Part shown: positions 11,412-21,204 of the stretch, piece after piece | Layout: the number at the start of each line of letters is the position of its first letter | Position numbering within the stretch: position 1 is the stretch's first letter | Notes under the pieces: generated by a model | Told to the model about the DNA's origin: nothing | The model's database searches: none | What the model saw: only the letters and a program-made list of their open reading frames with translations | Assembly (NCBI GenBank): GCA_947168725.1 | Contig: CAMVNA010000001.1 | Coordinates: 124,001 to 188,000, forward strand | DNA: 64,000 nucleotides | Direction: 5' to 3' | From: an uncultured bacterium | GTDB lineage: Bacteria; Patescibacteriota; Gracilibacteria; Absconditabacterales; Absconditicoccaceae | Program-made: the position numbers and the translations under genes

Positions 11412-11416
11412 AAAAA

Positions 11417-11487
11417 CAGGCGGTGAGGGGATCGAACCCCCGACAGCGGTTCCGAAGACCGATGTGTTACCACTACACCAACCACCC
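11417..11487 (-). tRNA. tRNA with UCG anticodon, probably tRNA-Trp(UCG)
   Basis: 71 bases: acceptor GGGTGGT / ACCGCCT, D arm GTGT/ACAC, anticodon loop CTTCGGA (anticodon at 11453-11455), T arm GGGGG-TTCGATC-CCCTC. A tRNA finder would label it Arg by anticodon. However, CGA and CGG stand at Trp positions throughout this window, and this tRNA has discriminator G73 and U72 as TrpRS prefers. Its anticodon arm CGGTCT-UCG-GAACCG and the following TGTCGGGGGTTCGA resemble ordinary tRNA-Trp. By contrast tRNA-Arg(GCG) at 26132 has A73. The charging identity is inference. Confidence 0.75.
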
Positions 11488-11490
11488 GTA

Positions 11491-15869: not shown

Positions 15870-18800
15870 TTATTTACTACTGAGTAAACTATGTTTTATA
15901 GTCAGATTTTCTATTTCTTCTTTTGTTTTTGCATATTCTTCTTCTGTTTTTGTACGCTGTTCTCATTCTAAAAGAGGTAGACGTTCTTTTAGTAAATTTA
16001 ATTTGTCATCTAAGTTTTTTATTTCTTTTTCAATATTTTCTAAAGATTCTTTATCTTTTCAGAGATTGTTATTTCAATGCTGGATTCATATTGTTACGAT
16101 ATCGTTTGAAAAAGTTTCGTATCATAGAGGAGTTTGTTCGTGAAGCCTAAAATAATTTATCTCTGAGAGATGAAAATGGTTTATAAAAATTTGTTCATAT
16201 TGAGCGAATAATTCACATATTGCAGGATTTGATTTTATGAATATGTTACAAGGTTCATGTTGTTTAATATTGTTTTCTATTTTCATTTCCTTTATTTTGA
16301 TAAATGTGTTGTAAAGTATGTTTATATTATAGTTTGTAGTTCTGTTTAATTCCAAAGGTTTTAGTGGTTTAATAAAAGTTTTTTTTGAAATATATTGTAA
16401 AGCGTGTATAAATTCCGGAGTTAGGGGATACAATATTGTTAGTAAAAAATTGAAAAAATAAGAGCAGACAAATTGAGTATTTTTTGTTGTGTTTATTTTT
16501 TGTACTTCTAAATATCGTGAGAAAAATATATTTTGAGTAGATTCTTTAAAATTGTTAAAAAAGTTGATGTAATCTTCATATGTTATTACGTTTTCTCGTT
16601 CATTATAAAGCTCTTTTAATTTGTCTAATACTATTATATCAAAATCTTCAAAGTCTTGAGGTTGATTATTTAGGCAATTTTCTATATTTTCTGGTAAAAA
16701 GCTTTTTTGTGTACATAATCTGACAGAATTCCAGATTTGTTTTAAAAATATATTATTCAATAATATTTGTTTTTGGTCAAAAGTTTGATTAATTAGAAAA
16801 TTTAGTCTGATTGGATTCTCTCAGTATGAAGAAAATATGTTCCATTGAGCCTGTTCAAGTTGAGATTTTGAAAGCTGCCTGTCTCCCAAAAATTCATTAT
16901 TTTTTTGGTATGAACATTCTATAAGATTTTTGTTTATTGTTTTTGAAAGCAATAGTTCTTGAGTTAATAATTCTTTGAAAACTTTTTCTTTTTCATTTTC
17001 ATCAAAGATTGTTTGACTATTTATTATTATTCATTTATTGTATAAGTAGCAAGGTATACAAAGTTCAATGAAATCGGGATTGATAATATCATTTGTGTTT
17101 CATTTTAACTTTACGAATAGAAAATTTCACTCATGTCTTAGAAATTTACAATTTTTAATTAGGTTAGATAAATCTTTTATTGTTGAATTGTTTTCGTCCG
17201 TTAAATCTTCGATAATTTTTAAGAATTTATTATAATCAGAATTGTTTCAAGTTGTTGTTTCGAAGTATTCTATTAAATATTTTATTTTTTTCTCATTTTC
17301 CGATAAAATTTTATGAAATTTTTCGTATTCACATAGTTTATATTCATTGTTACCTCAACATTCTTTTACTGGTAAAGTTCATGCACGGATTAATGATAGT
17401 AAAATAAAGTCAAAACATGACTGTATAGGATTTTGTGTTTGAGAAGAGATGTCTTTTTCTATTGAAAAGAAAGTTAAATTTCAATTATTATCTTTAATTA
17501 ATGGTATTTTCCATCAAAATGGAATCTGACTATTACAAATGAAATAGTTTGGTAAATATTTTTCTAATTCTTCAATAATTTGCTGTTTAATTGTGTTGGT
17601 ATTCTCATCTTCGCCGTTAGAAGTTATGTCAAATCATTCGATATTTGTTTCAAAAGTTTTATCTTGTCAATCTTCTAATAATATATTTTCTTGGTGTTCG
17701 TTATTTTCTTTTATTAATTGAGATAGATTATTGTTTGAAGATGTATAGTTTATGTTGTTTTCGAGAAATTGATTTATAATTTCCTCTTTTTCTTTTTGTA
17801 AATTTATGATTAGCTGATCTATTTTATATGGTACCAAGCGTTCATTTATTTCTTCTAAATAAGGTATTTCTATTGTTTTTTCTCATTTCTCTGCTAAGTT
17901 TCATATATCTTCCATGAAATCTATAATGTTGTTGTAATATTTTTTTCTTTCTTGTCAGATAAATGCAGTTTCATGGATATAATTTGTATATAATCACTCT
18001 TTATCAAAAACGTAAATATCTGTTGGTAATCAATATTTTTTGGCCAATTCAATACTTTCTTCATCATAGCAAGGACAGATTCTTTTTATTCAATTATTAA
18101 CGGCAATGTTTACATTATCATCTCCTATAATGGGAATTTGACGATTACATAGTGGAATGATGGCATTTTTTCAAATATGTTTATTATATCTTTTATCTTT
18201 TGGATGAACGAGTAATGCAACATCACTACAACAGAGATCAACGTCTTCAATGCATACAGGTAGAGCTTCAGCTTTTGTTCATACAAAATATTTTAGTGTA
18301 TAACAAGGAATTTTTTCTTTTTTCCAGGAAATTTTTTCGTATGGAATTGATGTTTGTAAGTTAAAAGATCGGTATCAAATTTTAGTTTCGTTGGTGATTT
18401 TTCACTTTTCTCGTAATAAACGAAGTTGTTCTAAAATATATATATATAAATCAGAATCTGGTATGTATATTTTATGGTTACTAGAAGAATAACAATCCAA
18501 AATTTTATGATTTGCGTTGATATATTTTTTATTGCGTGAAATTATGTGTTTTTCTAATTTATTTGATCATACTTGAGATATTGTTTGGCGTTTTTTTGAA
18601 AAAAAAAGGAAACTTGAGAAAATGTTATCAAGTTGGTTTCAATAAATGATAAAAAGCTGTTCGTATAATTTATTTATTCAATCTTCAAAATTTTGTGGAT
18701 TCTGAATTATGTTTTTTTGGTTAAAAAAATCTTTTAAATAAATTAAAAAGAAGTCTTGGTATGATAATTTTTTCGAACTTGATAAAATATTTGGTGAAAA

Positions 18801-18896
18801 AGTAGATTCTATGTTGTTGTTTATATATTTTTTTTTATCTAAGATAGATCGTTTACGTAAATCTTTTGGATTATATTTTTTAGGAAAATATTCCAT
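15870..18896 (-). CDS. Degenerate valyl-tRNA synthetase-like protein without HIGH or KMSKS
   Basis: A 1008-residue protein that follows the ValRS layout but has lost its active-site motifs. The N-terminus FPKKYNPKD matches the ValRS start. Where HIGH should be (residues about 34-50) there is SPNILSSSKKLSYQDFF. The CP1 region is recognisable by GYWSFNLQTSI (Trp from CGA at 18369) and by SDVALLVHPKDKRYNKHIGK with IIPLCNRQIPIIGDDNV. However, the TTRPET editing motif is replaced by LPVCIEDVDLC. I find no KMSKS. The C-terminus is a coiled coil, like the ValRS arm. The frame is intact, so it is probably functional in some other role, not as a synthetase. Upstream a tag stop precludes a longer start. 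Confidence 0.75.
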
Positions 18897-18941: not shown

Positions 18942-20684
18942 TTATTCTTCAGTATGTCTAAATAATTTTATTCAAAAATATATTAATAAAGTTAAACACA
19001 CTAATAGAAAGAAATTTTCAGCTGGTCAAACTTGTACTTTTGTGGCTCAAGTTAACTCAATTTCTTCTCAATCTTCACACACTCAAATCACCCAGAAATA
19101 CATGAATACATCTTCTTTTGATGTGTGATCAAATGGATATTCGTAGCTTGTATCTGTTGTTTCATATACTTTTACTTTATCTTTTCAGTCGGGCGACGGT
19201 GAGCTATATATAATATATTTTTTCACACTTTCAGCCTTATCTCGTACAAGATAATAACTGTTTCAGATTTTTTCTGTATGTGTAGAAATGCTTTGAGCTG
19301 GGCACGAAGGTCATAAAATTATTGTTGTTTCTCATTCTCATTCGCAATCTTGGGGACATAGTTCATGACTTTCTCAATTGTCGCAAGTTCAGTTTCAACA
19401 AGTGTTTTGATCTTTAGATATTACAAACTGTATTGTCTTTGATGCAGCTCCATGATTTGATTGATTGTTCCAGTAAGGTGTAATGTTTAATTTTACAATT
19501 GTGTCGTATGGAACATCTTTAAATTTGAAAGAAGTTTTTTCGGATCGTTCTTTTCATGAAAGAGTTTTTGATCATTCAATTCGTCGGTCAATTAGGTAAG
19601 AAGAAACGCTATTGTTCGGTGCATCCCATGAAATTTCTGCTGTTTTTGTTTCTGGATCAGTATTGATTTTAATATTACTTATAGACGGAGAATCTGATAC
19701 AGTGATTGATTTGTAGTTATCATATGATCTGTTTATGGTATTGTTTGAAGAAGATATATTGAAAGATAAAAAAACTTCTCAAGAGCCAATTAAAAATACA
19801 TTTTGAACGAATTGCCCTATTCATTTTTTATTCATTATTATACTTTCGCTACTAGGCCTATCGGATAAGCTCAACTTTATTGATTCTACATTTTCATCTG
19901 TATTTACTGTTATAGTTGTCATATCTCACACAACTAGTCATATTTCAGGCTCTACTGTTATGTTTTTTATTCAGTCAGTTCAATCGGAAGAAACAGTAAA
20001 TGAAACAGTTTCAGATTTTCATATTATGTTTCAGTCCAAATCTGATATTTCAATTGAAAGTGTATGTTGTCATGGATTGATATTTGAAATTACATGATTA
20101 ATCGATCAGTTGGATGATACGTTAGCAGTATCTATTTTGTTTCAATCGATATAAATCGAAGCGTTGGAATTGGGTACATCAGAAGCTGTTGCTATGACTT
20201 CTACTTTGTTACCAATCAAATTGGCATTGGAAATTGGAGAAAAAATCTCAATATTTTTTGTTTCGTTGGATGAATCACCTATAACATGTATCAATTGTTT
20301 TCAAATGGGTTTTTCGTCATCCTCGTTAAGATCTTGTATTTCAATATAAAATGTTCATTCTTTCTTTATCTCTAATCATTTTTGAAATTCTTTTTCTCAT
20401 AAATCTGATGATAAAAATTTATACATTCATTGACTTGGAACAGTGTATTCGTTGCTTTTGAGTATTTTTCAGTTTTGATCAGTAACGGTTATCCGAATGG
20501 TTCATTTATATGTTGTCATTTTAGATCAATTCTTCATCATAGTGATTTTTAGGTTTGTCGCTTCTCACACTGTCAAAGGATCTTTCACTGAAATTTCTAC
20601 ATTATCGGGTATGCTTTGAGCAAAAACAAATCAAAAACATACTAGTCATATAGAAGCCAATATTCCGAATGCAAACTTTTTCAT
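18942..20684 (-). CDS. Surface protein with Ig-like/fibronectin-like domains and C-terminal anchor
   Basis: A 580-residue exported protein with signal segment MKKFAFGILASIGLVCFGF and FVFAQS as probable cleavage site. Several beta-sandwich repeats follow. One, starting ISNIKINTDPETKTAEISWD, looks like a fibronectin III domain. A Cys-rich stretch (CGNGTCDNGESHELCPQDC) lies near residue 440. The C-terminus has one membrane segment (FFLLVCLTLLIYFGIKLF) and a short charged tail. It is downstream of the small membrane protein at 20707 by 22 bases, so the two may form a surface complex. Two adjacent CGA codons in the FN3 region read as Trp-Trp. Confidence 0.7.
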
Positions 20685-20706: not shown

Positions 20707-21204
20707 TTAGTGAATCTGATTGTTTTCTATGTTATCCAAATTTCAAATAGCAAAATTTAAATTTGTAGATTTGATGTATTCGAGGGTTATATCTTTAGAA
20801 TCTCAACTGTATGGTAATTCAAATATTCATTCAGAAAAATCTCAATTTTCATATCAATCGACATTTAGTATTATATTTCATTCATTTTGTTCAGCGATAT
20901 TTACGGAATAATTTGTATTTATTTGGTTACTGAATCGTTCTATGTTATTTGGAGAATAAAGTATAGAGATTGTTAAAGGTCACTCATTTCTGGTTTGTTC
21001 GGCTAGAAAAATTTCAAAAATCTGGTTTTCTTTTTTGTATCATGCATCCCATTTTGTGGATTCAAAAAAATCTTGTTCAGTAAGTGATAGTATGCTTGCA
21101 GATAAATCTTTGGTATCATACTGGATTCGTGCCACAAAAAATGCAAGTAAAATACCGAAGATAACTATAATTAAGTATTTAGATATATTTTTTACAATAT
21201 TCAT
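20707..21204 (-). CDS. Small membrane-anchored exported protein
   Basis: A 165-residue protein with one N-terminal membrane segment (YLIIVIFGILLAFFVA) and a beta-rich outer domain. That domain includes EGIFELPYSGDSKDITLEYI, reminiscent of cohesin- or pilin-type sandwiches but not diagnostic. It lies directly upstream of the Ig/FN3 surface protein in the same orientation. An in-frame ATG at 21231 would add nine residues; the chosen start gives a more ordinary membrane anchor. Confidence 0.6.

Follow-up and report, generated by a model that had tools for sequence, protein, structure and literature searches.

The window analysed here, a stretch of 64,000 nucleotides from an uncultured member of the Absconditabacterales (GenBank assembly GCA_947168725.1, contig CAMVNA010000001.1), carries on its reverse strand a gene for a protein related to valyl-tRNA synthetase (ValRS), which we refer to as pseudo-ValRS, preceded by two genes of surface proteins, c3 and c2. 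Under code 25 the gene is a single frame of 1008 codons with exactly the limits 15870-18896 and with 29 in-frame TGA codons. A better fit was obtained with TGA read as Gly and CGA/CGG as Trp, the latter assignment being the one published for Absconditabacteria (PMC8629427). Re-translation turned in-frame CGA codons into the Trp of YWSFNLQT and of SWYLEVQK, restoring the Trp of the YWS-x-LQT-like motif that had been pointed out in an earlier note on this DNA, made from the letters alone. In the canonical ValRS of the same genome a CGG codon likewise sits on an apparently conserved Trp. A wrong genetic code as the source of the missing motifs (see below) could be dismissed, as the re-translation sharpens the match to ValRS and restores no catalytic motif. 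The window also encodes a tRNA with anticodon TCG that should read CGA/CGG, Trp codons here, and would by function be a Trp carrier.

Table. Features of the pseudo-ValRS locus, with the TCG-anticodon tRNA of the same window.
Feature	Position in window	Strand	Basis or remark
Pseudo-ValRS gene, 1008 aa	15870..18896	-	Read with TGA=Gly, CGA/CGG=Trp
Residues 1-174, N-terminus with FPKKY and first Rossmann half	18375..18896	-	Fold, alignments
Residues 175-385, CP1 (former editing domain), best-conserved part of the degenerate clade	17742..18374	-	HMM match, structure superposition, identity
Altered editing pocket: R272 (K in all intact copies), S281 (substrate-anchoring Asp in all intact copies)	18054..18083	-	Alignment
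Order-specific helical insertion, approx. residues 469-603	17088..17492	-	Alignments; limits approximate
QLSKS, KMSKS-like string, residues 674-678	16863..16877	-	Alignment
Helical anticodon-binding region, approx. residues 690-875	16272..16829	-	Conserved W722, N723, R726, Y795, K800, P824, P827
C-terminal region, residues 876-1008	15873..16271	-	Long helices 945-975 and 979-1007 (coiled-coil arm)
c2, secreted Ig/fn3-type surface protein, C-terminal transmembrane stretch	18942..20684	-	Upstream, 45 nt from pseudo-ValRS
c3, 165 aa, N-terminal transmembrane helix and cohesin-like module	20707..21204	-	Upstream, 22 nt from c2
tRNA with anticodon TCG	11416..11488	-	ARAGORN call tRNA-Arg

Alignment with orthologues from the same order confirmed what the earlier note had read from this gene, namely a ValRS-like protein without HIGH, a usable KMSKS or the TTRPET editing motif. 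The HIGH site is replaced by LSYQDF (18767-18750), with S, Q and D at the H, G and H positions, which read H-G-H in 16/16 intact orthologues. The QLSKS string cannot be taken as a conserved motif because the nearest relatives read QLSKI, QLTKL or ELTKL there, and the aligned second lysine of KMSKS is gone in all 31 degenerate copies. Both HIGH histidines and the KMSKS lysine are found in none of these 31 aligned copies and in all 16 intact ones. The loss extends well beyond the signatures: in the first catalytic half 39 of the 52 columns conserved among intact copies have been lost and only two are kept in the degenerate copies, and in the second half 41 of 45 are lost. Motifs that are intact and simply diverged, which the earlier note had named as a way to be wrong, appeared in none of the 31. 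A synthetase or amino-acid-activating enzyme that is still active behind diverged motifs would agree with the Rossmann fold kept in the predicted model, with the QLSKS string of the window copy and with the precedent of archaeal LeuRS-I, which makes leucyl-adenylate without charging tRNA (PMC9437257). The joint loss of the HIGH histidines and the KMSKS lysine, the scale of the column loss and the presence of an intact ValRS alongside in the genome make such an enzyme scarcely credible.

Profile scores and predicted structure give different views of the same protein. Against the NCBIfam bacterial ValRS model PRK05729 pseudo-ValRS scores 137 bits, far below the cut-off of 704, and in the HMM comparison, as proposed earlier, the support from curated models is limited to CP1. 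Searched against Pfam, the protein gives next to no match, so that domain libraries alone would miss it; related copies do match Pfam Anticodon_1. The AlphaFold model (pLDDT 82.7, pTM 0.73) is not fully independent of intact ValRS because the 18-row alignment behind it includes intact ValRS sequences. Its best Foldseek match is the Thermus ValRS 1gax_A (E 1.1e-30), the fold is that of ValRS over the whole length (1gax_A, Z 19.4 over 726 residues), and its CP1 fits the editing domain structure 1wk9 of ValRS (Z 20.9, rmsd 1.6 over 143 residues). The ValRS scaffold that had been recognised in the earlier note is thus covered in full by the prediction, which gave no sign of an unrelated fold. Intact copies and the majority of degenerate ones have the order-specific helical insertion (G036 and G041 have lost it), and the anticodon region carries no positive net charge in intact and degenerate copies alike.

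CP1 calls for separate consideration. The segment corresponding to TTRPET reads CIEDVDL in pseudo-ValRS, and the substrate-anchoring Asp of intact copies is a Ser. Of the degenerate copies, 30/31 no longer have the TTRPET Arg and 29/31 have S, G, T, H or L, mostly Ser/Gly, at the place of the Asp; the CP1 Lys has become Arg in every one of the 26 main-clade copies. This last replacement shows that the pocket is under constraint; it is not drifting freely and has changed in a consistent manner. From the alignment here and from general knowledge of the family, we take the aligned CP1 column to be that of the Asp characterised biochemically in IleRS. Changing that residue to Ala in IleRS lowers deacylation by a factor of 10^4, and the same Asp serves in ValRS and LeuRS (PMC4861432). 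With the pocket residues changed and this role for the Asp, canonical editing by pseudo-ValRS is therefore unlikely. The same figures weigh on the idea of a free-standing trans-editing enzyme, in which CP1 would hydrolyse mischarged tRNA and back up an incoming ValRS. CP1 is indeed the best-conserved domain, and several degenerate sub-clades retain the PET of the editing motif with the following Asp. Nevertheless, the anchoring Asp and the TTRPET Arg are gone almost throughout, and the archaeal-type ValRS of the window's own genome (see below) retains TTRPE and its own CP1 signature, so that we regard trans-editing as improbable.

The second, intact valS that the earlier note suggested looking for is present in the genome, at L007:1455-3899, next to a HisRS-like gene. 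It encodes 814 aa with HIGH, KFSKS and TTRPE and is of the archaeal type (P0002; PRK13208, 906 bits against a cut-off of 738). IleRS, LeuRS and MetRS are also encoded in this genome and are distinct from pseudo-ValRS. Pseudo-ValRS thereby fits the description of a pseudo-synthetase, an aminoacyl-tRNA synthetase (aaRS) derivative with a lost active site in a genome that has the active enzyme elsewhere. We then surveyed 49 genomes of the order, belonging to 22 genera, two of which (G018 and G047) could not be scored; G047 has no detectable copy of the gene in a fragmented assembly. The resident bacterial-type ValRS is degenerate in 33/49 genomes (12/22 genera) and intact, with HIGH, KMSKS and the editing Asp all present, in 14 genomes from 10 genera. 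This distribution excludes an assembly artefact, the same degenerate state being found in 33 genomes, and shows the gene to be conserved in other Absconditabacteria, a point that the earlier note had proposed to check. In 31 of the 33 the gene is one open frame of about 790-1016 codons, and these frames come from all 12 genera; in G005 (L058:6067-9010) and G043 (L077:6015-8638), both MAG assemblies, the frame is split by one apparent frameshift each. Outside the order, among the matches listed in a class-wide profile search, the rows look like pieces of one ValRS per genome.

Nearly all genomes with the degenerate gene (32/33) have another intact ValRS, which is archaeal-type in 26, standard bacterial in four (880 aa; G010, G014, where it is partial, G015 and G016) and an intact order-type copy in two (G042 and G044). 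No other intact ValRS was found in G033, a genome that is 73% complete. The archaeal-type enzyme was found in none of the 14 genomes in which the resident ValRS is intact. In an RpoB tree, from which two outgroup loci with wrong reading frames were left out, genomes with the intact gene formed a basal grade and those with the degenerate gene a derived group. The intact G024 fell inside this group, a single clade not being rejected (p-AU 0.17). A gene tree of the CP1 and C-terminal columns placed the 31 degenerate copies in one clade with 100/100 support, a value that long branches could have inflated, and the window gene branches off the bacterial-type ValRS resident in the order. The active enzyme tells a different story, with several further replacements, by a standard bacterial enzyme in g7 and G010, by the order-type in G042/G044 and by a distinct archaeal-type one in G006. 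Its tree is tangled, with the g1 subclade of the window nested among g12 sequences and G006 an outlier, which indicates that the active enzyme was exchanged repeatedly and the dead copy inherited. The position of the archaeal-type ValRS of this g1 subclade (L089-L094 versus P0002) inside g12 suggests, at the level of the tree, a recent transfer between these two genera.

Sequence divergence is very unequal along the degenerate protein. Mean pair identity between genera is 0.16 and 0.14 in the catalytic halves, 0.40 in CP1 and 0.22-0.26 in the C-terminal parts; in intact copies the catalytic halves reach 0.56 and 0.69. Between the window copy and its nearest relative G040 (73% identity, whole frame open) we obtained dN 0.156 and dS 1.25, i.e. 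a dN/dS of 0.125, which is a rough value because dS is near saturation, and the range against close relatives was 0.125-0.23. The gene has been retained in the lineage under purifying selection. Slow neutral decay of a non-functional gene could account for the two broken frames and for the strongly diverged catalytic halves. Against it stand the 31 long open frames, the low dN/dS, the K-to-R change fixed throughout the main clade and the conserved gene position, and we consider it very improbable.

The gene neighbourhood adds a further regularity. The c2 gene lies directly upstream of pseudo-ValRS in 28/29 degenerate loci (median gap 55 nt), the genes downstream vary, and the exception is G029, where pseudo-ValRS lies away from c2-c3. 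Its downstream neighbour there is a gene of the FemAB family (L087:3276-4172); this family includes aminoacyl-tRNA-dependent peptidoglycan transferases. None of the 11 intact loci examined has c2 directly upstream of the ValRS gene, the distance being three genes in G024. Relatives of c2 occur in 118/127 sampled genomes of the class, and the c3-c2 pair, which follows an MltG/YceG-like gene in some genomes, is maintained throughout the order. Because the pair is also found in intact genomes with no ValRS behind it, its function does not depend on pseudo-ValRS, and the notion of c2-c3 as strict functional partners of pseudo-ValRS is weakened. The fixed position behind c2 therefore suggests shared expression, perhaps a shared pathway, and is no proof of either. 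A promoter scan did no better than chance.

This arrangement is an argument for a protein scaffold or chaperone of the surface system that would no longer bind tRNA and make only protein contacts, with the products of the c3-c2 operon or with its regulators. The position is maintained across many genera while other neighbours are scrambled, and CP1 has stayed while the catalytic halves drifted strongly. However, the model is that of a cytoplasmic enzyme fold with no evident signal peptide, whereas c2 and c3 appear to be exported or bound to the membrane, the gene was kept away from c2-c3 in G029, and the anticodon-binding core (W-N-R, Y-K and P-P) is still conserved. We see a scaffold of this kind as unlikely, albeit the strongest of the competing explanations, which in order of likelihood continue with trans-editing, neutral decay and, last, cryptic catalysis.

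The best explanation, to which we give a probability of about 0.62, is that a resident ValRS was displaced and retained as a full-length non-catalytic protein with a new job. Working from sequences and models, we could document the displacement pattern, the apparent loss of both chemistries, the retention, the constraint, the predicted fold and the position; the loss of catalysis together with the retention of the protein is well supported. In this scenario the window gene would be the former bacterial-type ValRS of the order, an archaeal-type ValRS would have arrived in the ancestor of one clade and assumed the charging of tRNA, and the old gene would then have lost aminoacylation and canonical editing and stayed full-length. 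Pseudo-ValRS may still bind tRNA or tRNA-like RNA through its anticodon-binding and C-terminal regions, as we infer because the anticodon core (residues in the table) and the C-terminal helical arm remain. The conserved core hints at such binding, but these residues may also only maintain the fold, and the lack of a positive net charge in the anticodon region tells against it. CP1, with its altered pocket, would be the part selected for the new role, as a module for RNA binding or docking, and the whole protein could act as a tRNA-responsive regulator or scaffold co-expressed with the c3-c2 surface genes. Pseudo-ValRS is thus most likely a tRNA-binding factor or a scaffold built around CP1. 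The data support the repurposed, lineage-specific synthetase relative that the earlier note proposed, through the second valS, the ValRS fold and the conservation in the order, and the tRNA-binding or regulatory role that it guessed is plausible. Displacement by a foreign enzyme, the intact orthologues of sister genera and the constant place behind two surface genes lay beyond what the letters alone could show. A more specific version, tentative and rather doubtful in its details, is that the dead ValRS links the translation state (e.g. charged/uncharged tRNA-Val) to a surface system in bacteria that are reduced and depend on a host. It would do so as a tRNA-sensing regulator or scaffold, through a CP1 pocket rebuilt alike across the main clade, and would be kept while the active ValRS is repeatedly exchanged.

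Pseudo-synthetases are a known kind of protein. With the bacterial ValRS (PRK05729/TIGR00422; T. thermophilus 1GAX) pseudo-ValRS shares orthology to the copies of sister genera, the whole-length fold, CP1, the anticodon helices and the C-terminal arm, and differs in the absence of HIGH, KMSKS, TTRPET and the editing Asp and in its low family score. The archaeal-type ValRS is the active enzyme with which it coexists and not a close relative, since it is the bacterial-type model that gives the window gene its highest score. LeuRS-I of Sulfolobaceae and LeuRS2 of Halobacteria are also full-length class Ia relatives beside an active enzyme. Each of them reportedly binds tRNA-Leu and charges it very little or not at all; the CP1 editing domain is disrupted in LeuRS-I, a protein that is important for growth (PMC9437257). 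LeuRS-I is the closest functional precedent, although it still makes the adenylate and pseudo-ValRS lacks both catalytic signatures; unlike in the LeuRS-I/LeuRS2 cases, the dead protein here is the displaced resident and the active one is foreign. HisZ, PoxA/EpmA and others are aaRS descendants with roles outside charging (PMC9437257), but their ligands or reactions are known and the tRNA-binding parts are often missing from them, while pseudo-ValRS keeps the full ValRS architecture. ValRS receives no mention in that review (PMC9437257), and the literature searched, which took in a minor part of the subscription papers, yielded no earlier report of a full-length dead ValRS that became fixed in a clade of bacteria once a foreign ValRS had displaced it.

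In one clade of the ultra-small Absconditabacteria an essential enzyme seems, as happens rarely, to have persisted beyond the loss of its original function, which offers a natural experiment on the fate of such an enzyme after horizontal replacement. That a 3-kb gene has been kept without catalytic sites through the diversification of a clade, in genomes near 1 Mb, points to a second task for which the foreign enzyme is no substitute. The intact orthologues in sister genera provide before-and-after pairs, which make the new role testable. Annotation should be handled with care, as such genes can be called valine--tRNA ligase and yet probably cannot charge tRNA.

Another synthetase of this genome, the IleRS (L008:873-4904, G000 contig C3), of at least 1343 aa, contains two inserted enzyme domains, NUDIX (E 2.1e-10) and histidine-phosphatase (E 4.7e-17).
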